The notes under the pieces: model-generated
The model's database searches: none
What the model was told of the DNA's origin: nothing
The model's input: the letters and a program-made list of their open reading frames with translations, nothing else
Shown here: positions 1 through 64,000 of the stretch, in pieces
How positions within the stretch are numbered: position 1 is the first letter of the stretch
Layout of the letters: each line of letters starts with the position of its first letter
Source of the DNA: Prototheca cutis
Lineage: Eukaryota > Chlorophyta > Trebouxiophyceae > Chlorellales > Chlorellaceae
Direction of reading: 5' to 3'
Assembly (NCBI GenBank): GCA_002897115.2
Contig: BCIH01000004.1
Location: 550,450-614,449 of the forward strand
DNA: 64,000 bases
Position numbers and translations under genes: made by a program

Positions 1-2116
1 GGTGCCTGGTGGGGTCGGTGTCGCCGGGGACGCGCGTGTCTGCCCTGGGCATCCTGTCCATTTATCAATCTAAAGAAGCAGGCAAGGCACGCGAGCGCGC
101 TGGTGCCGTCGCGCTCCGCCAGTCCTACCTCCGCATCGTGGGATTCCAAGAGGACGTCATGAACGGTGACACCTCACGCAGGCCAACCTTTTCGTAAGTC
201 AAGGGCTTGCTTGGCTTTCGGGGTGTTTCTGTTGGCGATCCATTGGCGGGTGCGTTGTCAGATGTGTGAAAAGGGGGCGTGCTGGCCCCCTGGGGCCCGC
301 TGCCTGCCGACCTCGTGAAGCATGCCCCGTCTTCCCACGAACAAGGACTCACCTCCACGTCAATGACGTCGTCTCCTACTCTACAAACAGCTTGGAAGAG
401 GAGCAGGAATTCAAGGAGTTTGCTTCGCGCCCCGGAGCCATGGAGCGCATCTTTGATCGCATCGCACCGAATGTACGTTCCGTCTGGTTTTGGAGTGTAG
501 GGCTTGTTTTGCTGTTCAGGAGCTTTATGTGGTTGGGGGCATTGGGGTGACTGCGGAGTGGAAAACAAGTGACAGGACTGCCTATCCGGTGCTGAGCACC
601 CCCACTCCCACCAACAACCCTGCAACAGATTTTTGGGCATGCGGAGATCAAAAGGGCGATTGCGGCGCTCTTGTTTGGCGGCGCACGCAAGCGCATGCCG
701 GACGGCACGCACCGTCGTGGGGACATCAACGTCCTGTTGCTGGGCGACCCTTCCACGGCCAAGTCCCAGTTTCTCAAGTTTGCGTCGCAGACTGCGCCCA
801 TCGCCGTCTACACCTCTGGCAAGGGCTCCAGTGCCGCTGGTCTGACTGCCAGTGTCATCAGGTTGTTACCCGTTTGGAGGGGTCCTTTGGTTTGTTCGAT
901 TGTTGTGGGCGCTCTTTGACAAGGCTCACAGCCAATGCTGTCAGTCAGAACCAGCCGATGCTCTTAGCAGCCAAGGCCCCCCCCAATCCACCCGACAGGG
1001 ATCCATCGTCTCGGGAGTTTTACTTGGAAGGAGGTGCCATGGTGCTGGCAGATGGTGGCGTGGTGTGCATCGACGAGTTTGACAAGATGCGGCCCGAGGA
1101 CCGGGTGGCCATTCACGAGGCGATGGAGCAGCAGACGATTTCGATCGCCAAGGCCGGCATCACAACCATGCTGCGGTCGAGAACCAGCGTCCTGGCAGCC
1201 GCCAACCCGCCCTCTGGGCGCTACGACGATCTGCGCAGCGCGCAGGACAATGTCGACCTGCAGTCGACCATTCTGTCGCGGTTCGACCTGATCTTTATCG
1301 TGCGCGACGAGCGCTCCGTGGCACGTGACCGTGCCATTGCGGCGCACGTGCTGGCCGTGCACGGCGCCGCCGCCCGCGACCGCGGGCCCGGCGACGTCAG
1401 TGGAGACGGGGTGACTCGCCCCGACGCTACCGAAGAAAACTTCCTCAAGCGCTACGTCGAGTATGCGCGGTGGGCGTGCAGTCCGCGCATCACGGATTCG
1501 GCCGCAAAACTCCTGGCCAACGAGTACGTTGACTTGCGGCGTGAGGCCATGCGTGCGGCGCGAGCCGAGGGATCCGATGTCCCCGCAGTTCCCGTCACCG
1601 TGCGCCAACTGGAGGCCATCGTCCGCGTCTCCGAAGCACTGGCACGCATGGGATTGCAGGCTGCAGCGGGGGAGGCCCACGTCCGTGCCGCGCTCGGCCT
1701 GTTCAAGGCCTCCACCATGGACGCCGTGCGGTCGGGCCTCGTCGATGGTCTGGTCTTCACAGATGAGCAGCGGGCCGAGCTGCATGGCGTGGAGGAACAA
1801 ATCCGACGCCGTATTGCCATCGGCGCCTTTGTCTCAGAACGCAAGCTCCTCGACGACCTGGGCAGGTATGTTTTTCTGGGTTGGGGGGGCACATGCTACA
1901 TGATGATTGCTGGTTCTCTGCCGAGGCACGCATGTGCTCAAACACCCCCCCCCCCAAAAAAAAATAAATAAATAAATAAATAAATAAATAAAATAATCAA
2001 ACTACTGCAGGGTGGGATACAACGAAAACTCTGTGCGCAAGGCGCTGCTGTTCATGCAGAGCAACGGCGATTTCGAGTACCGACGCGAGCGGCGTCTGGT
2101 GCACAGACTGCGCTGA
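1..2116 (+). CDS. MCM5: MCM5 replicative helicase subunit, 5'-truncated by the window
   Basis: Subunit of the MCM2-7 replicative DNA helicase; nuclear ATPase loaded at origins. Exons as I read them: <1-193, 391-472, 629-861, 999-1865, 2011-2116; phases agree at every junction and the frame ends in TGA. Visible: end of the OB-fold region, Walker A (GDPSTAKS), Walker B (CIDEFDKM), sensor-1 (AANPP) and arginine-finger motif (SRFD), then the C-terminal winged-helix region. The stretch [15 protein letters not shown] is strongly MCM-like, and the order of blocks around it ([30 protein letters not shown]) fits MCM5 better than its paralogues. The N-terminal third lies upstream of base 1. Intron 4 (1866-2010) carries an (ATAA)n run. 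MCM5 versus another MCM is a judgement from memory of the family. Confidence 0.9.
1958..1995. repeat. (ATAA)n microsatellite in MCM5 intron 4
   Basis: About nine units of a TAAA/ATAA tetranucleotide just before the polypyrimidine tract and acceptor of the last MCM5 intron. It follows a C-run and an A-run. Confidence 0.85.
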
Positions 2117-2451
2117 GGGATTGCAGGACGCACGCCGTGCCCTCCTCGCCTGCCTTACTCGCTGTGGCGTGGCACTCACCGACCGATGCAGGAACCCACC
2201 CTGCTTCTCAGCAGTGCACGATGCTTGATGTGTGCAGCGGGTGAAGCTTCAGTATCTCAGCGTGCATCGCCTGGTGCCCACTTGACACGGTACTCATCCC
2301 TCGTACCAAACCCCCCACCCCACCAGCATCTCCACCAACACACGGTGTAAACATCAGCTTCGCACTCTGTTGCTCTTGACAGTATGTACGACCGACAAAC
2401 AAATTGCGCCGTAAATGCGACAAGTTCCAGCGCACAGGCTTGTGGTCAAAC
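2117..2451. other. Convergent 3' intergenic region
   Basis: Lies between the stop codons of MCM5 (+) and the peroxiredoxin gene (-). I see no coding potential; it presumably holds both 3' UTRs. Confidence 0.5.
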
Positions 2452-3562
2452 TCAAATCACTAGCTGCTTGTTGGTGACGGCCGTCTCGGCTGCAGACTGG
2501 AAGCTGGGTTCGGGAGAAATTTTGATCTTTGCAGACAGGATCTTGCCGCCCTTGGCTGCCACGATGTGCGACCGGACGACCTTCCTGGGTGGCAGCAAGG
2601 CACCCACCGCCTTTAGAAACTGCGCGGTGGTGGAGAGGCAGTGACGATGGTGCTGAGTCAACGGGCAGAGTGGGCACATTTTCCAGCCTGTTGCCTGCAC
2701 AGATGAAGTATTCCTCCCAAGCCGCCCAACACATACCTCGCCACTGTCATCAGTCAGGAGATGGTAAGGCAGGCTGAGCTTGTCCTTCCACCTGGTCTGC
2801 GTCCCCGGCTTGTCAAAGCTCAAGCCATACACCTCAAATCCAGCGTCCTTGATCTCCTGGTAACGGTCCCTGAAGCCCTCGGCCTGCCTCGTGCAGCCGC
2901 CAGTATTGGCCTAAAGAGGACACGTGTGTTTGTTTGGGGGTTTCTTGAAGGGGGGAGGGGGCATTTTGCTTGATATCGGGGGACCACATAGACAAGCCAG
3001 GCAGGACGGCCCCACAAGGAAAATGAAGCAGCATCCACAACGCATCTTCCATCACCCTGGGGTACATGAAGATGATGACTCCCGAGTCCTTTGCCAGGTC
3101 CTGCAAGGTAATGAGTTGCGATCACACCTGAGTTGGCCTCTGGGGCTGATGCTGGAAATTATCGTCTGATCTGGCGACACTCGCACCCCGCCCGAATCGG
3201 CCACACACCTGAATGTTCACTTGCTCATCATCATTCCTGGTCACCACTACGTTGGGAAGCAGGTCGCCCTCTTTCAGTGGACCCTTGCTAGCTTTCACAG
3301 CTGCCTGATCCTCAGCACCCTTGGTCTCCTTGGCAGGAGACGCTTCTGGCTTGGCGGCGGCCGTTGTCTTGGCCTTCTTCTTAGGAGAAGCCGCCTTTTT
3401 CTCCTTCAGCGGGCTTGACGGTTGCTGCACAGGTGCCGATGGCTCGGCATTTTCCTCCTCGGCGGCCTTGCGCTTGCTCTTGCCCTTGGATGGAGGCCCC
3501 TTGGACTCGGGCTGTCCGGGCTTGTCCTTGCCCGCTGCAGCACTCCTGGTAGCTGGCGCCAT
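2452..3562 (-). CDS. Peroxiredoxin Q/BCP-type thiol peroxidase with basic N-terminal tail (nuclear Dot5-like)
   Basis: Thiol peroxidase reducing hydroperoxides with a catalytic cysteine. Exons in coding order: 3562-3209, 3100-3056, 2910-2737, 2619-2452; 246 aa, all phases agree. Residues 1-95 are rich in Lys, Ala, Pro and Ser (several KKK-type clusters), a low-complexity nuclear or chromatin-type tail. The thioredoxin-fold domain follows: KEGDLLPNV, IIFMYPRANTGGCTRQA with the peroxidatic Cys, GLSFDKP, and the C-terminal VRSHIVAAKGGK and KISPE blocks. Yeast Dot5, a nuclear thiol peroxidase, has very similar RSHF and KISPE blocks, so nuclear location is my inference. No chloroplast transit peptide is obvious, unlike plant PrxQ. 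The CTRQA motif lacks the second Cys of typical CxxxxC BCPs, suggesting a 1-Cys mechanism or a distant resolving Cys. Confidence 0.85.
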
Positions 3563-3864
3563 TCTCCAGATCCAGATGCCAAACTGCCCATGTGTAACTA
3601 AAATATTGACAACGGGGTGCGTATGGGTTGCGTGGGAAGTGTTCGTGCATTCCTAAGGCTAGATCATCGATGGGGTGTCGAGCTTGCCTCATCACGGCGA
3701 TTTGGGTTTGGGGTCCGACAGCGCCATGATAGAGTGGTCGTTCTCGAACTCGGCAGCGACTCACGGCATCAAATGGCCTTGGTAATTCATGATTACATAT
3801 GTATTGAGCTGATAGTTGAGTATGAACGGCGGAACAGGCGCCCCATGATTGTGGGCTGCAGCTC

Positions 3865-5702
3865 ATGCCGGGTGCATGGACGGTGCCATTGGGCAATGCC
3901 TGCAGCGCAAAGGTCTTTGAAGCCGTAGGGGCGCCTTTTCCCAGGCCACCACGGCGTCATCGCTGCGCTTCACATGCTCACAATGGCGACGATTGCCCCG
4001 CAGTGGGGATTGACCTGGGCACCACCAACTCTGCCATAGCGGTGGGTGGGTTTGGTGGGAGGTGGTGGACGAGGGATGCATGGCTAGACGAAGAATTTCT
4101 GGCAGAGACCACCTGGGGTCATCCGTTCCATGCCCGTGCCCTGCAGGTCATAGAAAATGGCCGGCCTCGCATCATCCCCGTGGACGGAGGGCACCGCACC
4201 ATGCCCTCCACAGTGGCATACATGCCAGACGGCTCCGTCCTCGTGGGCAGAGCTGCCCAGAGGTCCGTGGGTGTGGGTGGTAAAGGGAATTGGCAGGCAA
4301 GAGAGAGGAGAGACGACGGATGATCCAGCAGATTGACAACCCCCACCCCCTCCCTTCGAAAATACAAAAAAAACACAGAGCTCCAGCAGGATGTGTGCTG
4401 CAGTCGACCAAGCGGTTTATGGGACGCAGTGCAAGCGAAATTCGTATGATTCGGTCGTTACGCCCCCCACAGCCGCTTATCCCGGCCGAGGATGGACAGC
4501 TGGCGTTCCAGGGCACGGGCTGGCCGACGCGGGTAACCCCCGGCGCGGCTGCTGGGGCTGTTCTCGCGGCCTTGCTGGACGACGCGAGAATGTACTTTGG
4601 CGGTCGACGACCCACGCGTGCCGTGGTGTCAGTTCCAGCGTACTTCAACGATGCGGCACGTGCTGCCACGGCGGCGGCTGCGGCAGATGCGGGTCTGGCA
4701 CGGACGCGGCTGGTGCATGAGCCCGTGGCGGCGGGCCTAGCGTACGGCCTCGACCTCGACCGTCATCGCTGTGTGGCGGTGCTGGACCTGGGTGGTGGGA
4801 CGTTTGATGCCTCGGTCCTTCGTGTCGGCGGCGGCGCTGTGGAGGTACTGGGCACTGCGGGTGACCCGCTGCTGGGCGGCGACGATTGGGACGCAGCGGT
4901 CGCTGCCTGGCTCAGGCGCCGCGCTGCACGTGCGGGCGTACCGCTTGATCCTGGCGATCCGGGTGTCGCTGGATCGCTCCGCGCGGTCGCCGAGGACGTC
5001 AAGCGACAGCTTTCCACGCAGCGCGAGGTGCAAGTCAGGGTGCCGGGGGCATCCGGGCCCTTTCGTTTGAGTGCTACAGCCCTGGACGATATGACTGCCA
5101 AGCTCTACCTCAGAATGAGAGAGGTCGTTGATCGCGCCTGCTGGCAGGTGTGTGTGTATGTTTTTCTTTTTTTAAGAGGTGGGTGTCGCGCATGTGTGCC
5201 CAACTGTGAGAAGAAGCGGCCTGGCCTGCCGGGCTGTGTGCAGGTGGGGATTGACTTGGAGGAGTTGAGGGCGGCGGCTGAGGAGGGTCGACCCCAGCTC
5301 GAGGGCCCGCACCCGGCTCTGACAGAGGTGCTGCTGGTCGGCGGCGCCACACGCATGCCGGGCTTCCAGCGCTTTGTGAAGAACATGACGGGGTTGGAAC
5401 CCGACCACAGCGCCGTGCACCCGGACCTGGTACAAAGTGTTTGGCATGTGTGTTTGGGGGGGCTATGCACGCTGCGCACGCTGTGCTTGCGGTGACAGTG
5501 CTCACACTCATACTCCCAGAGTCTGTGTTCCATTGAGTGACGACCAGAACCCCCTTGTGAAAAAAAACGATAGGCGGTAGCGCTGGGCGCTGGCATCTGT
5601 GCGGGACTGCGGGATGGCACGACCAAGGACATATTCCTGGCGGACGTGTGGCAAGCTGCCATGATCAGGGCCTTGGCGGCGAGCCAGGCCCAGGAGGGGT
5701 GA
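3865..5702 (+). CDS. Hsp70/DnaK-like protein containing only the nucleotide-binding domain
   Basis: Hsp70-family ATPase. Exons: 3865-4041, 4147-4266 (3' end uncertain), 4404-5147, 5244-5429, 5574-5702; about 450 aa. Motifs in order: VGIDLGTTNSAIAV (phosphate 1), TKRFMGR, VVSVPAYFNDAARAA, HEPVAAGLAYGLD, LDLGGGTFDASVL (phosphate 2), the GGDDWD block, ADVKRQLS-like stretch, LVGGATRMP (adenosine loop) and AVALGAG. It then ends KDIFLADVWQAA plus about 12 residues and a TGA, exactly where a canonical Hsp70 would enter the linker and substrate-binding domain. The 45 residues before GIDLG are Arg/Ala/Pro-rich and could be an organellar transit peptide. Family resemblance is to bacterial or organellar DnaK rather than cytosolic Hsp70. 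The exon 2/3 junction omits the NPENT-type loop and may be mis-drawn. Confidence 0.8.
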
Positions 5703-21090: not shown

Positions 21091-21404
21091 TGCAGAATAT
21101 ATCACATAGGTTCCCTCTTTAAGGTCTTCAGAGCGGTGGATCACCTGTAGACATGTGAAATGCCCCCGACCTGCGACGGTGCTAGGGCCCCGTGTTTGGT
21201 AGGGGGGAGAATGCTCAGCACCCCTGGCCCGGGCGGCCCCTGGACTACAGTAATGGCAGAAAATGATGAAACCTTGTCGAGATTCGTCCACTCCCACCTG
21301 CACAGCAAGGGCATGTTTTTTAAACAAAATGCTTGTTTGACCGCATTCCCTGGCCATGTTGCTCAGAGAATGGGTTGGGTTCCTTCTTGGCAGCACGACA
21401 GGTC
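21091..21404. other. DDI1 upstream region up to the truncated Fanzor copy
   Basis: DDI1 5' flank. An open frame runs into the Fanzor remnant from here but its sequence before about 21405 has no family resemblance, so I treat it as flanking DNA. Confidence 0.4.
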
Positions 21405-21851
21405 ATGCAGGGAGCAGACGCCCGAGGTGGTCTGCCACGGTCTGCTGCGCTGCACCAACAAGGAGTGCCAACCCTTGAAAGGCCAGCATCACCTCTGGAA
21501 CAGAGACTTGATGGCGTGTCTGAACATGAGGCACATCGTGCAGTACCCCTGTGGAAGACCGGCCAGCGGCCTCTGCGCTTCCAGCGCCCAGCACCGCAGT
21601 GCTGATGGACATCCATCCATCCATCCTGGGAAGTTATAGCCTTTCCAACTGGGGATCGGAACCCTGGGGCTTTTCCCCTGTCCCCGAAAGGGAAAGCAAC
21701 CCCGGACATGGTCCATCATTGAGGTGGTCCACCTTCCTATTGCCCTGTGGGGGGTGACAATTCACAGCCATCAGTGATGCCCAGCAACCCCCGGGGTGAT
21801 GTGACGCTGTTGCTGGCTGAGCTGGTTGCATAACTTTTGCCCTGCACGGTA
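21405..21851 (+). mobile_element. 5'-truncated Fanzor (eukaryotic TnpB-like) element
   Basis: The first about 170 bp encode the C-terminal tip of a Fanzor protein: second half of a zinc ribbon (VVCHGLLRCTNKECQ) and the RuvC-III-type motif LWNRDLMACLNMRHI. It is nearly the same as residues about 315-360 of the element at 62.5-64 kb. Homology to that copy begins at about 21405 and continues past the coding end through a non-coding tail to about 21851 (ends at the shared CCTGCACGGTA), after which the two loci diverge. The reading frame changes after MRHIV, so the C-terminus is altered. The N-terminal zinc-ribbon half and RuvC-I are missing, so this copy cannot encode a nuclease. Confidence 0.8.
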
Positions 21852-43626: not shown

Positions 43627-46600
43627 ATGCTTTTCGTGCACGCACCTCGAAGGGTTCTTGAGGGGTGGGGACTGGCAGACCCCACGTTCGAAACCTGCAT
43701 CGAATCAATGCTGCCCGGTTCCCTCCTTTCTAAGCCCCCCCTTGAACAAAACACTGTTCATCAACAGGACCCGCACGAGCGCTACCGCTTCATCCGCGTG
43801 CTGGGCACCGGCCATTTCGCGGCGGTGTACCTGTGTTCGACGTTGGGCAGCGGCGAGCTAGTCGCCATCAAAGCATTGGACAAGCACCACCCCGAGTATG
43901 AGCGGCACACGGCGCTGGAGGAGGTGCGGGTGCTGGCCGCGCTGCAGGCCTGCCCCTCCGTCGTGAGCCTGCTGGAGGTGTGGGAGGACGGCTCGTACCT
44001 CTTCATCGTCCAGGAGGCATGCCTGGGCGGCGAGTTGTTCGATCGCGTCGTGCGCCAGCGCGCTTTCAGCGAGCGAGACGCCGCGCGGTGCATGGGCGCG
44101 GTGCTCGGCGTTGTCCGGCATGCGCACTCACGCAACGTGCTGCTGCGGGATCTGAAGCCTGAGAACTGGCTGCTGCGACGCGCAGAGGCCGAGGTGCACC
44201 CGGACAACCTCCGCGCCGTGGACTTTGGGCTGTCGGTCTTCCACCACCCCACCGCGCCCTGCACCGACCGTGTAGGTTCGAGCTATTACGTCGCGCCCGA
44301 GGTGCTCCAGGGCTCGTACTCCTTTCCGGCCGACCTCTGGTCGCTGGGCGTGATGGCCTACGTGCTGCTGTCGGGATTTCCGCCGTTTTGGGGTTCTGCC
44401 GACCCCGTAATTTTCCACCGCATTCTGCACGACGATGTTGACTTTGACTACGAGCCCTGGCACGGGGTCAGTTTGGCGGCCAAAGATTTCATTGCCCGAC
44501 TGCTGGTCAAGGACCCGGCGGCGCGCATGGGGCTGAACGAAGCGGCGGCGCACCCGTGGGTGGCCGACGCCCGTGCTGCCCCGAGCGCCCCCCTGCTCCC
44601 CCAGGTGCTGGACAGCCTGGCGGCGTTTACGAAGCAAACAAGGCTGCGCAAGCTCCTGCTCAGCGTCGTCGCGCGCCAGCTGTCCGAGGGCGAGATTGAC
44701 GCGCTGCGTGGCACGTTTGCCAGTCTGGACACCGACGGCGACGGCCTGGTCAGCGCCGCGGACATTGTCGAGGGCATGCGCCGCGCGGGCGTCGACGTCT
44801 GCGACGCGGGCCTGGCGCGGACTTTGGAAGAGCTCGGACCGCTACTGAAAGGGAAAATCAGCGCCGAAGAGTTTGTGGTCGCAGCGCTCGACACGCACAA
44901 GGTCCTCACCGCCAAGACGGTGAATGCAATCTTTGCTGAGCTGGACAGGGATGCCGATGGGTTGCTGGCGGTGGAGGAACTCGCCTTTGTCCTAGAGGAA
45001 TGCAACATCGACGTGGAGACTGACGCGCTGCGGCGGCTGATGCACCGCGAGGGTGCGCTGGATAAGAAGGGCATGATCTCCGCCGTCAGTTTCAAGAATC
45101 TCTTGCTGGGACATCCCGAGGACTCGGAGGAAGAGAATGCTGGCGGCGACAAGGGAGGAGGCGACGGCTGCAGTTTGGCGGCGGCGGCATTGCCATTCGA
45201 CACGGCCGGCAGTGGTGGCTTGGTGGCGAGCGGCAACTTGGACGCGGGTGGCGGCTCGTCGGGATCCGTTCGCCTGTCGCAGACGACCTCCGGCCGGTCA
45301 CTGGGCCAGGGTGCCACGCCGCGCCCAGGGCTGGCCCCCGTGCAGATCGAGTCCTACCTCCGCGACGTCCACCGCTTCGCCGCGGCTGGAGCGTTTAAGA
45401 AGCTCGCGATGCTGGTCATCGCGAGGCAACTTGACGGGCGGGAGGTGGCCGCGCTCCGGGCACTGTTCAACCGGCTGGACCCCTGCGGGTCTGGGGTGCT
45501 GACGCTGGAGGTGCTGCGTCGCGAGCTGGGCGGGCGCGTGGGTGATGGCGACCTGGAGGACCTGATGGAGGTGCTGGACTTGAAGCACACGGGCACGCAC
45601 ATCGACTTTGACGAGTTTCTGGCGGCGGCGCTGGAGGACCAGCACCTGGTGACGGAGACCAAGATGCGTGCGGCGTTTGACTACTTTGACCGCGACGCGC
45701 ACGGCGTCATCACCGCGAGCGAGCTGGGCGAGGTGCTGCGCGAAGTTGGCATGGCCGACGCTGACGTCAGCATGCTGCTGGAAAGCGCGGTGCCCCAGAC
45801 CGCCGACCGCCAAGGGCTCGAGTGCGGCACCGTCACGTACCAGGACTTTAGGCGCGTGCTGCTCAGTCAGGGGCCCAACATGCTCACCGCACCCTGCACG
45901 CCACGGTCGCAGGGCAGTGGTGCGGGCGGGACCGGCACGCAGCCCACGCCTAGAAGTGGAGGAGCCCTCTCCCCGGCCGATGCTGGTACTGCTGGCGCTG
46001 TCGCGGTAACCGCCGCAGGTGTGCTCCCGGGAGGAGCGGAAGATGCGCTGGGCACGCCGTCCTCGGGCCCGGGAACCGCGCCGATTGCAGAACTGGCCGA
46101 GATGCTGGATGCGGCGTGGACGCCTCGGCTGGCGACGGGGGAGGACCTGGCCTGCAGTCCGCTTCACACGCCGCGGGCGGCCCACACCTTTGACGAAACG
46201 CTCGAGAAGAGTGGCGCTGGCATCAGCGAGCGCAGGGCCACTCGTGAGCTTGAAGAAAAGGGGATTGCCATACCGAGCGCCATCGGCACCGCCCCCCCCA
46301 CCACTGCCGCTGTGGCACGGCCGCCTCAGTCGCCCAACCTCATCTCCCTCAAGCCGCGGCCACGACCGGGGTCCGACGACGGAACCCCCCGGGCCACAGG
46401 CGCTGGTAGCACCAACCCCAGCGGCCGCAGCCTGACGCACGAAGCGGTGCGGCGGCGAGTGCAGACGTATGTGGCGGCTTGGCCGCCGGGCGGGCTGCCG
46501 CACAGGCACTATGACTCGGCAGTCAAGCGATCGGCGGCATCAGAAGACGCCGCGGCGGCTGCCGGCGGCGGCAATGACCTGAGCGCGCCGAGCCTGAGCC

Positions 46601-46926
46601 TGCCACTCCCTGCCCAACAGGCGCAGGAACTGTCCTTTTCGGCGATGGCTGCGCCGGAAGACTCGGCTTCGGCGCCTGCAGTCCGTGGCTCGTCGTTCTT
46701 TGCGCCGGGGTCTGTGCACCGCGCTTCCTCGCAGAGCAGCGGCGGCAGTGCGGGGCCCACACCCCGCGCGCACAAGCCCACCAAGCTGCAGAGCCTGCTC
46801 CAGATGTTTGTGCGGTCGGGCGGCCGGGCGTCGCCCGAGATGTCGCGCCACCCCAGCCGCAGCAGCCGCAACTCGACAGAATCGGTCAGCAGCGACGGTG
46901 GTGCCGCGTTCCTTGGCCAAGACTGA
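43627..46926 (+). CDS. Calcium-dependent protein kinase with two tandem calmodulin-like regions
   Basis: CDPK-family Ser/Thr kinase. One open frame of 1099 codons. Kinase domain about 52-315: LGTGHFAAVYL, AIKALDKHH (Lys82), LLRDLKPEN (catalytic Asp175, the usual His of HRD is Leu), VDFGLS (199), SSYYVAPEVL, LWSLGVMAYVLLSG. First junction plus calmodulin-like region at about 330-503: TKQTRLRKLLLSVVARQLSEGEI, EF-hand loops DTDGDGLVSAAD and DRDADGLLAVEE, with loops 2 and 4 degenerate. A second junction-like helix (AGAFKKLAMLVIARQLDGREV) and four more EF-like units follow at about 580-750; only DRDAHGVITASE looks near-canonical. The last about 350 residues are disordered and Gly/Ser/Pro-rich. N-terminus is uncertain: no MGxxx myristoylation signal, and an acceptor-like CAG sits just before DPHERYRF. 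Confidence 0.88.
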   Translation: MLFVHAPRRVLEGWGLADPTFETCIESMLPGSLLSKPPLEQNTVHQQDPHERYRFIRVLGTGHFAAVYLCSTLGSGELVAIKALDKHHPEYERHTALEEVRVLAALQACPSVVSLLEVWEDGSYLFIVQEACLGGELFDRVVRQRAFSERDAARCMGAVLGVVRHAHSRNVLLRDLKPENWLLRRAEAEVHPDNLRAVDFGLSVFHHPTAPCTDRVGSSYYVAPEVLQGSYSFPADLWSLGVMAYVLLSGFPPFWGSADPVIFHRILHDDVDFDYEPWHGVSLAAKDFIARLLVKDPAARMGLNEAAAHPWVADARAAPSAPLLPQVLDSLAAFTKQTRLRKLLLSVVARQLSEGEIDALRGTFASLDTDGDGLVSAADIVEGMRRAGVDVCDAGLARTLEELGPLLKGKISAEEFVVAALDTHKVLTAKTVNAIFAELDRDADGLLAVEELAFVLEECNIDVETDALRRLMHREGALDKKGMISAVSFKNLLLGHPEDSEEENAGGDKGGGDGCSLAAAALPFDTAGSGGLVASGNLDAGGGSSGSVRLSQTTSGRSLGQGATPRPGLAPVQIESYLRDVHRFAAAGAFKKLAMLVIARQLDGREVAALRALFNRLDPCGSGVLTLEVLRRELGGRVGDGDLEDLMEVLDLKHTGTHIDFDEFLAAALEDQHLVTETKMRAAFDYFDRDAHGVITASELGEVLREVGMADADVSMLLESAVPQTADRQGLECGTVTYQDFRRVLLSQGPNMLTAPCTPRSQGSGAGGTGTQPTPRSGGALSPADAGTAGAVAVTAAGVLPGGAEDALGTPSSGPGTAPIAELAEMLDAAWTPRLATGEDLACSPLHTPRAAHTFDETLEKSGAGISERRATRELEEKGIAIPSAIGTAPPTTAAVARPPQSPNLISLKPRPRPGSDDGTPRATGAGSTNPSGRSLTHEAVRRRVQTYVAAWPPGGLPHRHYDSAVKRSAASEDAAAAAGGGNDLSAPSLSLPLPAQQAQELSFSAMAAPEDSASAPAVRGSSFFAPGSVHRASSQSSGGSAGPTPRAHKPTKLQSLLQMFVRSGGRASPEMSRHPSRSSRNSTESVSSDGGAAFLGQD

Positions 46927-53774: not shown

Positions 53775-54129
53775 GACTAGCAGGGTTATGTGCGACAAAA
53801 CATTGCCATCGACTCCCTGTGCTACGGGAGGTGCAAGAGCCGGCATGTGCCCCGCAATGCCGATGCTGCCTGCATGAACTGGATTCGAAAATTTCAAACC
53901 TCGCATGGGCGCGCCAATTTTTGGCCATCGATCATGCATGCAGGCCAAACACAAGACAACATGCAAGCAATGAACACAACATTGACGGTGCCCTGGAGCA
54001 ATTCCTTCTCTGCAACAAACGTGCGTGCAGGTGGGGTTTTCCGATGCCTGCTCAAGCATCAAGGGAGAAGCGAAAGCTTCCTTTTGGGGACCAGCAGAAA
54101 TCAGTAGCTGGACAATTTTTTTTGGGGGG
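53775..54129. other. WDHD1 upstream region
   Basis: Promoter side of WDHD1 (minus strand). Ends in a T9-G10 run at about 54117-54134, the same type of tract seen beside the first N gap. No gene seen. Confidence 0.45.
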
Positions 54130-54545
54130 GGGGGAGTGTTCAGGCTGAACTCAGGCATGCGCTGGGGGGGGAGCCGCTTGTGAAAAGGCTCTGGCCGGGC
54201 GCCGTTGAAGATCAGGCCCATCGCCACATAGCACATGTTCTGCGCCGCGTTCTTGTCGCGGTTGTGCACGACGCCACAGGCCTCGTTCTGACACTGCCGG
54301 ACAAAGTGCTTGTTCTTGGAGGTGGGGCAGTCGCCCAGGCGCAAGGGTTTATTGCACGCCGAGCAAACCTGCGGTGCGGCGCACTTGGCGTAGGCGTGAC
54401 CCACAGCCCGTGGAAACCGCCTGTGCATGGCAATGCGCATACGCGTGCGGCCGTGCACTCACCCCGCACCCGCGCAAGCCCCACCATCACATAAGGGAGG
54501 CGGCGCAGCAGCAGCGACTGCGACGTCAGGTGGGGACACCGGCCG
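54130..54545 (-). mobile_element. Divergent Fanzor/TnpB-like fragment
   Basis: Encodes the C-terminal zinc ribbon and RuvC-III motif of the OrfB/TnpB superfamily: VCSACNKPLRLGDC, then FVRQCQNEACGVVHNRDKNAAQ followed by a short helix and NGARPEPFHKR. The pair C-x2-C and C-x4-C followed at once by N-R-D-x-N-A-A is diagnostic of TnpB and Fanzor C-termini. Upstream on the same strand, separated by an intron-like stretch (GGTGAGT ... CGCAG at about 54390-54472), is LLLRRLPYVMVGLARVR, the position where TnpB/Fanzor proteins have the strand before the zinc ribbon. I found no RuvC-I segment upstream. The motif spelling differs from the 62.5-kb element (HNRDKNAAQ against WNRDLMACL), so it comes from another lineage. 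Probably a decayed copy. Confidence 0.6.
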
Positions 54546-56564
54546 ACGGTGCTTTCCTTGTCGCCCTGCGCACATGCATGCAACGGCCATCTGGCTAACA
54601 GCATTCGTCGCTTATGGCTTGGTTTGGACCCACACGGGGGGGCTGTCGTACCATGACAAGCATGCAGTTCTGCCGGCTTTCATGCAATGGCATCTGAACT
54701 CTACCAGATAGTCTGCTCTGCGTTTGCGGCTCACCAGAAGCAGCAGTGTCGCTATTTCCGGCAATCCCACAGCAATATCAGCACCAGGTCGACGATGCAC
54801 GAGCTTTGCCTGGATGTCAACCCCAAGAAGAGCACAGCAATCCGGGCAAAATCTCAGGGGTGCCGCTTACTCTCTCCACGCTCCTGGCGGTGCAAGTTCA
54901 CCTCCCAGGCTGAACTGTCTACAACTCCCTGACCAAATGTGTTCTGCTTTGGATTGTCAATACACCAATGTAATAATAATAATGCAGAGTGAAGGCCACG
55001 AGGAATATCCCAGATGGTCGGGGTTGTACAGAAGGCTCCAAACAAGGCAGAGCCCGGCTCCTACAAGTCACCTTTCAACAGTCATACTCAAGGGTATGTA
55101 AGGGGTGCTCTTGAAACCACTTCAGTCGCAAATATCAGGTGCTCTTTCTTATTCCCGATCTCCTAAATGTTTCTAATATACATAGTTCTGAAAGGAACGG
55201 GCGTTGCAAAGGCTTATCCGCCTATTCAAAGTGCCCGATCTTGGGTACGGCGCTCCGCGGGTGCTTTGGACGAGGACTGACTGCGTGCAGGCACGCCCAC
55301 CTCCTTCCGAGGGGTACCCTCCGCAGACTGCGTCAGTGCTTTGGGATAAAAATTGTCATGTAGCAGGCGAGGTTGGTGGGCATAGGAAAGCCCCTAAGAC
55401 CATTTGTCAAGAATGTGCCATCTCGGCATGTCACTCCACACCGACTGGGTCCATCCGTGCTGCAATGGATCCGTCTCATAGGCCACCCGCTTAAAGGCAG
55501 GTAATTTCAAACCAATATCCGGGTTGTTGGGGGAGTAATCTGGGTTCTACCCGGAGGGAGCGTGCGCGCGTCATGTGATGCTCCAACGGGCCCAGGTCCT
55601 GAACGAGATAATCTTGTGTTGTCGCGGTTCAATATGTGAATCTCTCCCAACAAGAAATCTAGGGATCTGGAGGAGGCATTGAATGGAGTGCTGATCAGCG
55701 GAGCAGGACGGGCTGTGCTGCAGGTCGGCGGCGCGAGTCAAGGTGAAGATGCCTTGTGAGGATGCTGCACACCCATCCATAAAACCGCATTAAACCCAAA
55801 AAAAAGGGATTGATGAAATGTCGAATCAGAACACTGGCACAAGCCCGTAGGCTGCGGCCTGGCAAATCTTGCATGCAAACGCCTTACGAGCCGATAAAGC
55901 CGGGGCAACGATCCCGGGCGGGCGAGAAGGTATCACAGTTGAGGCTCTCCATCCAGACCATCGGGGAGCTCAGAAACGAATCTCGAATAGCCTTCGGACC
56001 CATGAGAGACACGGATTGTGACTGTTCCAAAACGCGTGCGCCGCCCAGCGAGAGGAACTGGCAGCTTTCCGCGACCCGACTCGAGGAAGCTACGCCGATG
56101 ACCATCCCCGCGCCACCCCCTCAAACGAAGCGAAAGGGATAGCACAGAATCATGCAATCAAGAGCTCAAGTATTACCCTCAAATAAAGTTTCTGCATCAT
56201 TCAATGAAAGGAATGAGGGGACAAAAACTCTCGTCGGTTACGAAACCCTCGTGTTTCCCCTGCCGCGGCCCACGAAGATGGCACGTGGGAACGCCACTTG
56301 TACGACGGTCGACGTATTCTGGAATCGTGCGAAGCCCTCAGATACGCTCCGTAACAGCCACGTGCCACACGTCGTTTCACACTCGGGAGCAGAAGCATTT
56401 ATTTTATTTGTCATGGTTGATATTAGGTAGCTCATCCGAGACTGGATCCCCCACGAGGATTTGAGCGTACTGCAGCGGTTGTCCCGCCAGCCTCGTTCGG
56501 AGAGTGTGTGGCAGCAGGCGGTATGGCCGGCGAGAGATGCGCAGTTCCAGTGCCTTGTCTGCAG
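54546..56564. other. 2-kb region with no recognised gene
   Basis: AT-richer than average. Open frames at 55810-56142 (+) and 56238-56927 (-) have no domain and no splice support. It may contain decayed upstream parts of the Fanzor-like fragment and the 5' exons of the following gene. Confidence 0.35.
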
Positions 56565-62497: not shown

Positions 62498-62640
62498 TAC
62501 CGTGCAGGGCGAAAATAATGCAACCAGCTCAGCCGGCAACAGCGTCACATCACCCCGGGGGTTGCTGGGCATCACTGATGAAATTTTCACTCTGCATGGC
62601 AATAGGAAGGTGGACCACCTCAATGATGGACCACCTCCGG
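62498..62640 (-). ncRNA. Candidate guide-RNA scaffold (fRNA/omegaRNA-like) at Fanzor 3' end
   Basis: The last about 140 bp of the element are non-coding yet closely match 21706-21851 of the truncated copy, more evenly than the GC-rich repeats next to them. In TnpB and Fanzor systems the guide RNA scaffold lies at the element's 3' end and the guide is read from flanking DNA. Position and conservation fit that; no expression evidence or covariation is available, and plain terminal-sequence conservation is the alternative. Confidence 0.35.
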
Positions 62641-62800
62641 GACTGTTTTCCCTTCCCGGGCCAAGGAGCCGAGAGCTCGTTGCCCCGGGAAGGGAGCCCC
62701 CAGGGTTTTTACCCCGGGGCTGCTTTCCCTTTCCGGGGAAGGGAAGGAGCCCCGGGAGTTCCCACCCCCGTTGGAAGGCTATAACCTCCCAGGATGGATT

Positions 62801-64000
62801 TTACTGCGGCGCTGGCCGCCGGAAGCGGTCCGGCCGCTCGCCGGTCTTCCGCAGGTGCTCCACGATGTGCCTCATGTTCAGACACGCCATCAAGTCTCTG
62901 TTCCAGAGACGATGCTCNCCNTTNGGNGGGCGGCACNTCTCGTTGGTGCAGCGCAGCAGCCCGTGGCACACCACNTCGGGCGTCTGCTCCCTGCGGTACG
63001 GGCGTGGGTTGGGCACGCGGAGGAACGTCTCCACCGTGCACTCCTCGTGTTCGCAGGCCGGGCAGCGCTTGGAGGTGCGGAACTCGTCGATGAGCACGAC
63101 GTTGAACCCCGCCTTGACCAGCGCCCGCAGCAGCCCGACGTGTGGCATCGGCTCGTGGAAGCGTGCCGGGCCCGGCGAGCAGTCGCCGACGACCAGCGTC
63201 GCGCCGTTCGCGAACTTGCGCAGGCGCGCGATGACCGCCGCGTAGGCCTTTTGCCGGTAAATGTATGCCCAAAGACGGAGCTTCCGGAAGATGGGCTTGG
63301 CATAGTGCTTGCTGAGCGTCGCCTCGACTTGGCCGAACACGCGCAGGTACGCCAAGAAGTCTGCCACAGTGCAGGCCCTGGCCCCGTTGGGCGCCTCGGC
63401 GGCCAGGCGCTGCAGGGCCTTGCGCACACCCTTGGTCATGAGCCTCCGGAGCAGCCTCCGGAACTTGCGCGACCGTGTGAGGAACGCCCACTCCCTGCTG
63501 CTGATCCGCATGGTCAGGCGGCATCCCTTCTTGTGGCCCGAGTCCTCGTGCATGCAGTACATCAAGTCCCCGCGGCCGGGGTCGATGAACACACACTTGC
63601 CGAGCTGCTCTAGCTCCTCGGGGCTGAGGTCATCGACGTAGCGCAGGCCCTCGAGGCCTCGGCGNTTCACGACNCTGCGTCGTGCGGCCGGCTGCTGCGC
63701 GCCCGCGCGGTCCTGCTGAGGGGGGTCAATGCCGTCCGACTCCGCGCTAGCGGCGGTGCCAGCAGCAATGCTGGCGGCCCTGCCACGAACCACGCGGGAG
63801 CCGGTCGCTCCCTCTGCCTCGACTCGCGCGGCGCGGGTGCTGCCGCCGCCGTCCTCGTTGTCATTGCTGTTGTCCCCGCCATCGCCAGGGAACTTCCGTT
63901 TCGCAGGCGGCGCGCGGCTGCTGTCGCCTTCGTCACCCATGTCACCGCGGCCCCCGCCGCCAGCGCCACCGCCGCCAGCACGGCGGTGGCCTCTGCCGCG
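62801..64000 (-). CDS. Fanzor protein (TnpB-like, RuvC nuclease), partial at N-terminus
   Basis: RNA-guided endonuclease family of eukaryotes related to TnpB and Cas12. Open from the window edge to TAA at 62801; numbering here starts at ATG 63940, but the frame stays open 5' of it as an Arg/Gly-rich (RGRG, GGGG) segment, so the start may be further upstream. Residues 1-100 are disordered. Nuclease core: CVFIDPGRGDLMYC (RuvC-I, Asp120), FRRLLRRLMTKGVRKAL and FLAYLRVFGQVEATL helices, WAYIYRQKAYAAVIARL, VVGDCSPG (about 250), VVLIDEFRTSKRCPAC (Asp285, first zinc-ribbon half), CHGLLRCTNE (second half) and LWNRDLMACLNMRHI (RuvC-III, Asp349). This block order and the D-E-F-R-T-S signature fit Fanzor. 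The WED/REC part is not seen, so it is upstream or lost. Ambiguous bases fall at about residues 86, 89, 320 and 331-340 (the zinc ribbon). Confidence 0.85.
   Translation of the reverse strand, partial: RGRGHRRAGGGGAGGGGRGDMGDEGDSSRAPPAKRKFPGDGGDNSNDNEDGGGSTRAARVEAEGATGSRVVRGRAASIAAGTAASAESDGIDPPQQDRAGAQQPAARRXVVXRRGLEGLRYVDDLSPEELEQLGKCVFIDPGRGDLMYCMHEDSGHKKGCRLTMRISSREWAFLTRSRKFRRLLRRLMTKGVRKALQRLAAEAPNGARACTVADFLAYLRVFGQVEATLSKHYAKPIFRKLRLWAYIYRQKAYAAVIARLRKFANGATLVVGDCSPGPARFHEPMPHVGLLRALVKAGFNVVLIDEFRTSKRCPACEHEECTVETFLRVPNPRPYRREQTPXVVCHGLLRCTNEXCRXXXXEHRLWNRDLMACLNMRHIVEHLRKTGERPDRFRRPAPQ

Follow-up and report, generated by a model that had tools for sequence, protein, structure and literature searches.

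A Fanzor1-encoding DNA transposon with inverted ends and size-tiered deletion derivatives in a probable green-algal genome

The Fanzor1 frame at the window edge

The window, by which we mean the whole stretch of 64,000 nucleotides analysed, closes on its right side with a minus-strand frame whose stop codon occupies positions 62801-62803 and which stays open over 399 codons up to the edge (Table 1). Along this frame the motifs run in the order DPGR, DEFRTS-K-R-CPAC, a second C-x4-C and NRD. Searched against the PDB with phmmer, the window protein matched Parasitella parasitica Fanzor1 (PpFz1; 2.1e-45) and SpuFz1 (6.2e-27), a sequence resemblance far above chance. The Pfam model PF07282 scored under its threshold (20.5 bits, with 26.3 required; E 5.3e-4). 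Judged by its sequence, the gene is a Fanzor1, and both the Fanzor identity and the order of RuvC-I, DEFRTS with split zinc ribbon, and NRD given in the initial annotation were borne out. The feature makes up the last 1.5 kb, on the 3′ side, of a DNA transposon ~3.4 kb long, here called family A, in which Fanzor1 is the sole recognised gene.

The catalytic core was mapped through a full-length copy of the element, L029. Residues D383, E541 and D606 of SpuFz1 align with L029 residues 489, 655 and 718, which correspond in the window frame to the Asp of DPG, the Glu of DEFRTS and the Asp of NRD. All three acidic positions are therefore in place, as had been claimed, and the RuvC-II acid, previously left unassigned, is the DEFRTS Glu because SpuFz1 E541 aligns there. 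RuvC-I reads FIDPGRG, the RuvC-II Glu stands six residues ahead of the zinc finger in the arrangement ExxxxxxCxxC (DEFRTSKRCPAC), and the C4 zinc finger is followed by the RuvC-III Asp; DPG combined with ExxxxxxCxxC is described as the Fanzor signature in a passage of PMC10711439.

The window frame contains eight single N bases, and an N run of 6,415 bases adjoins the right edge (L009, 3001-9415). An extension of 3 kb to the right, as the initial annotation proposed, therefore meets nothing but N. The N-terminal half of the protein falls in this run, and the earlier description of the coding core as potentially active holds for the catalytic core alone. The frame is indeed open to the edge, but the Arg/Gly-rich segment found there, which had been taken for the N-terminus, reads in the full-length frames as a linker that joins a WED/REC-like half to RuvC.

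Table 1. Features of family A and of a further Fanzor stub in the window
Feature	Position in window	Strand	Basis
Fanzor1 coding region, C-terminal 399 codons and stop; right side cut by N gap	62801..64000	-	
Arg/Gly-rich linker before RuvC, limits approximate	63664..64000	-	placement in L029 frame 1940-4183
RuvC-I catalytic Asp (DPGR)	63581..63583	-	SpuFz1 D383 alignment via L029
RuvC-II catalytic Glu, Fanzor position ExxxxxxCxxC	63083..63085	-	SpuFz1 E541 alignment via L029
Split C4 zinc ribbon	62933..63064	-	sequence reading and homologue alignment A3
Zinc-ribbon Cys codons	63062-63064, 63053-63055, 62948-62950, 62933-62935	-	
RuvC-III catalytic Asp (NRD)	62894..62896	-	SpuFz1 D606 alignment via L029
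Candidate guide-RNA scaffold: 3′ end region common to full-length and deleted copies	62500..62645	-	alignments A1, A2, A4 and conservation profile
3′ terminal inverted repeat and TA, element end at 62500	62498..62525	-	end pattern; same end elsewhere
Short internally deleted family-A copy, TA to TA	21246..21851	+	matches L029 1080-1239 and about 3993-4498
Fanzor C-terminal stub in L025 repeat, like families B and L020	54168-54410	-	tblastn

The window has a GC content of 61% and belongs to a genome of 19,886,974 bases in 23 contigs. Its host is likely a green alga, as the initial annotation had supposed from the DNA letters: the best match of alpha-tubulin is 6u42 (4.4e-276), which we take to be the Chlamydomonas protein, followed by two further alpha-tubulins (1.7e-271 and 4.4e-271), presumably of ciliates. 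A CDPK-type kinase with EF hands lies at window positions 43627-46926; kinases of this type occur in alveolates too. The chlorophyll a/b-binding family had no match in the genome, in a search whose control was positive for 1 genome out of 14; photosynthesis has probably been lost in this alga.

Ends, full-length copies and deletion derivatives

Family A is bounded by imperfect inverted repeats of ~28 nt, TA included. The same ends, set in unrelated flanks, are found in L029, L030, L031, the window copy and a second, short copy in the window, as befits a Fanzor1 carried by a eukaryotic transposon. Position 62498, where the initial annotation had begun the feature, marks the TA with which the element closes on its 3′ side. 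At loci picked without using the opposite end, that end starts with TA at the aligned place in 12 of 14 cases. Among five 3′ ends located without the end pattern, three carry TA and two, those of L029 and L030, carry CA. TA is also present at all 40 further 3′ ends, for which the selecting pattern itself contains TA; the bases that follow it favour C (23/40) and A (21/40), the window as a whole being 31% C and 19.5% A. In its terminal inverted repeats and its TA target sites family A resembles Tc1/mariner elements, with TA absent from some ends. Among the loci examined there were no nested insertions that would demonstrate TA duplication. The next 3′ end past the N gap, L055, was considered and set aside: 48 nt alone match the window copy, and the flank differs.

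In the full-length copies L029 and L030 the open frames span 748 (1940-4183) and 708 codons. The WED/REC-like half that the initial annotation could not find in the window copy is present in these copies; in L029 it is recognised because residues 91-309 align with PpFz1 (i-Evalue 7e-11). Further upstream in L030 a frame resembles, by eye, the N-terminal part of the homologues and is followed by an apparent intron; in L029 the corresponding part is spread over more than one frame. L029 also carries, in its 5′ part, a 109-bp direct repeat whose two units (1385-1493 and 1665-1773) are 72% identical.

A Pfam search of ten of the 23 other L029 frames of at least 80 aa gave no match at E 0.01, and as these ten frames lack a DDE transposase match we have not filed the element as mariner. 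Genome-wide, DDE_3 (PF13358) was without a match, with the control positive in 3 of 14 genomes. DDE_1 (PF03184), the mariner Transposase_1 (PF01359) and Plavaka (PF18759) likewise gave no genome match, a result that does not establish their absence because no control was positive.

A 25-nt pattern of the 3′ end, allowing up to three mismatches, has 340 matches genome-wide, and a 26-nt 5′ pattern has 222; the reversed controls have none. The 340 matches represent fewer than 340 elements, since foldback elements are counted twice and two of the 14 known opposite ends also lie within three mismatches. At the protein level the window frame matches at least 107 places on 20 of the 23 contigs (104 of 274 candidates scored, some matches being two pieces of one copy): 13 of at least 280 aa, 16 of 120-279 aa, 72 C-terminal stubs with a median identity of 73%, and 6 other short pieces. 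It is very improbable that the Fanzor copy is a contaminant or part of an integrated giant virus. Giant viruses do carry Fanzors, according to PMC3627910, but this spread over contigs and the placing of the ends in unrelated flanks speak against such an origin, as do a scan of viral contigs based on the homologue alignment (32 pattern matches, no relatives by tblastn) and the fungal origin of all organism-named proteins among 31 relatives.

End pairing, which used 100 of the 340 3′ matches and 62 of the 222 5′ matches, yielded at least 24 elements with paired ends among the matches listed, falling into tiers of 350-359 bp (seven), 538-694 bp (eleven) and 2.0-4.3 kb (six). The 18 elements of 350-694 bp are deletion derivatives: copies of ~350 bp match L029 at its two ends alone, and those of ~590 bp retain a decayed coding stub. 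In the short copy of the window, the C-terminal coding stub is likewise decayed and split over two frames. Short, numerous, inverted at their ends and devoid of coding capacity, the short derivatives have the properties of MITEs. The derivatives examined all retain the 3′ end, which is the end used to find them. Three more elements, of 108-121 bp, have a 3′-type end on both sides (L052, L053 and L054). The scale and tiering of the deletion derivatives are an unusual feature of family A. N runs of at least 300 bases occur in 13 loci, all fetched for Fanzor or element matches, and with N runs in so many of these loci copies have probably been missed or collapsed in the assembly. Long N runs were seen in L009, L011, L013, L021, L028, L031, L035, L039, L040 and L051, among others.

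The conserved 3′ end and a possible role for the nuclease

Conservation is concentrated at the 3′ end. Mean pairwise identity among 12 copies that retain both ends, taken in windows of 20 columns, is 0.93-0.96 over the last 75 alignment columns, compared with 0.61-0.87 for the eight windows that open the 5′ alignment. The outer ragged windows are lower at both ends, and one inner 3′ window stands at 0.92. A larger alignment (A4) took 60 ends out of the 340 pattern matches, with L035-L054 and L056-L095 picked from the first 100 listed matches at 0-1 mismatch. In 58 of these 60 copies, two foldback-like ones being left out, the majority residue reaches 0.95-0.99 per block over the last 74 columns (0.91 in the very last block) and is equally high (0.95-0.96) in two blocks further in (-124 to -105); the stretch separating the two regions falls to 0.82-0.91. 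Because the loci were chosen by their 3′-end pattern, these profiles are biased over their final ~25 nt.

Conservation of the 3′ end in full-length and deleted copies is as expected of a guide-RNA scaffold, for which this region is a candidate. A conserved RNA fold is unproven, with no support from covariation: two-sided changes occur in 0 of 32 predicted pairs among 20 copies and in 1 of 18 among 60 copies. Single-fold z-scores (n=6) range from -0.3 to -3.6 and lie below -3 in two. The missing covariation would fit a 3′ end that serves as a transposase binding site only, with no guide-RNA scaffold, and so would the 108-121-bp elements, whose paired 3′-type ends a transposase could use alone. 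We put this reading slightly short of an even chance; against it, conservation extends ~75-80 nt inward, well past the ~28-bp inverted repeat, and exceeds that of the 5′ end in the 12 copies.

To our knowledge, how a Fanzor benefits its transposon is still an open question. We think it rather probable that family A is a transposon moved in trans whose Fanzor cuts empty sites, with repair restoring or spreading the element. In a first step, a transposase from elsewhere would move the element and its derivatives, via their inverted ends, into TA sites. The Fanzor would then bind an RNA that starts in the conserved 3′ end and reads into the flank, by analogy with studied Fanzors. Third, the complex would cut the same chromosomal site where it lacks the element, beside a short motif that perhaps includes TA. 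Finally, repair from the element-bearing copy would restore or spread the element; homologous recombination is efficient in Auxenochlorella and Prototheca, as stated in part of PMC12633428.

Several observations count in favour of this four-step model: the shared ends in unrelated flanks, the TA that opens 12 of the 14 opposite ends and stands at the 40 further 3′ ends picked by a TA-containing pattern, and end patterns that match 340 and 222 times but never in reversed form; the PDB matches, the D/E/D mapping, the Fanzor signature and the WED/REC-like region of L029; the dN/dS values given below, the conserved 3′ end and the efficient recombination of relatives. Others count against it. As no transposase was found, the first step is left without an agent. 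Of the TAMs given in excerpts of PMC10432273 and PMC11423790, CATA of SpuFz1 would suit the model, but ATN of PpFz1, the closest relative, does not end in TA; CA rather than TA stands at the 3′ end of L029 and L030. The preponderance of short C-terminal stubs (72 of the 107 coding matches), the L029 upstream coding region that is not in a single frame, and the scarcity of two-sided pairs (0/32 and 1/18) and of z-scores below -3 (two of six) also weigh on this side.

Six pairs among four copies have dN/dS of 0.14-0.50 at dS of 0.03-0.07, and among copies so young dN/dS can reflect past constraint only. It is possible, if doubtful, that a transposase alone spread the element and that the Fanzor is a passenger with no present role, its intact-looking frames left over from a recent burst. 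At such low dS the open frames may simply be young; the stubs with their median identity of 73%, and the 18 of 24 paired elements reduced to 350-694 bp, would also suit a relic. Set against it are dN/dS values that stay under 1 for every one of the six pairs, the catalytic residues retained by the window copy and, as PMC3627910 relates, the retention of Fanzor1 across several unrelated transposon superfamilies.

Rather unlikely, in our estimate, is an extension of the four-step model by which the deleted copies would be guide-carrying miniature elements: they would keep the 3′ scaffold and read a guide from their own flank, and full-length copies would supply the nuclease in trans. Each small copy would then programme the cutting of its own empty allele, and together they would form a dispersed library of self-homing guides in a recombination-proficient host. 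Family A has known ends, TA sites and derivatives graded by size, and it seems to sit in a lineage related to Auxenochlorella, which is diploid and readily altered by homologous recombination, as part of PMC12633428 reports. This would permit a direct test of Fanzor in the retention of an element or its spread from one homologous chromosome to the other, and of short copies as sources of guide RNA.

Relatives and further Fanzor families

Among the 31 protein matches, P0001 is 73% identical over the C-terminal region searched, and all organism-named relatives are fungal, at 31-48% identity (Rhizopus, Mucor, Rhizomucor, Coemansia and Syncephalis); the homologue alignment (A3) used 20 of the 31. 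In a 21-row tree of 19 of these matches and two copies of our own, family A groups with P0001, P0002 and P0015, amid fungal and unnamed proteins (joins to P0002 92/89, to P0015 85/93). Transfer from fungi is not claimed, the branches being long and no row being a named alga. P0001, the closest of these relatives, has GRN in place of NRD; its third catalytic residue is thus an Asn, which an excerpt of PMC11423790 reports for GtFz1 too.

PpFz1 (PDB 9cf0-9cf3) and SpuFz1 (8gkh) share with family A the WED/REC-like region, a DPG or DPN at RuvC-I, the Glu in the Fanzor position, the C4 zinc ribbon and NRD, whereas the long Gly/Arg-rich linker before RuvC sets family A apart. As elements, the closest counterparts described in PMC3627910 are mariner-ended elements such as PUl-4, which also have Fanzor1 as sole protein, inverted ends, TA and no internal transposase; family A, likened to them by end type and not by a match to a known mariner, differs in having numerous derivatives that have lost internal sequence and fall into size tiers. 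The same paper describes the Fanzor1 elements CRe-1/2/3 of the green alga Chlamydomonas reinhardtii, with many truncated or internally deleted copies and an excess of 3′ ends, as here; in contrast to the inverted ends and TA of family A, these are of Helitron2 type, many with 7-19-bp TSDs. In Auxenochlorella, a related lineage if the host is Prototheca-like, the commonest repeat of UTEX 250-A is an uncharacterised Fanzor-encoding element according to part of PMC12633428, a comparison by description only. Among the open-licence papers listed, no title or abstract opening describes family A or Fanzor miniature elements. What is new is family A itself and the size tiers of its deletion derivatives, the kind of element being already known.

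The genome holds further Fanzor families. Family B (L018 640-5488 and other loci) measures ~4.85 kb, reads DEFRTSQ, is without family-A ends, has a probable intron ahead of the zinc ribbon and is accompanied by internally deleted forms, ~1.15 kb long, of its own. Searches for its homologues gave none at E 0.001 and no PDB match at 0.1, with a query that probably included translated intron. A third family, L020, is related to family B. The two other copies that the initial annotation had counted in the window proved by tblastn to be of different kinds: the one at 21.2-21.9 kb is the short family-A copy, and the stub at 54.2-54.4 kb belongs to another Fanzor family. A third repeat, which holds such a Fanzor stub, lies at window positions 53912-55417 (L025); it and its counterpart at L023 4314-5806 are 87% identical to each other.
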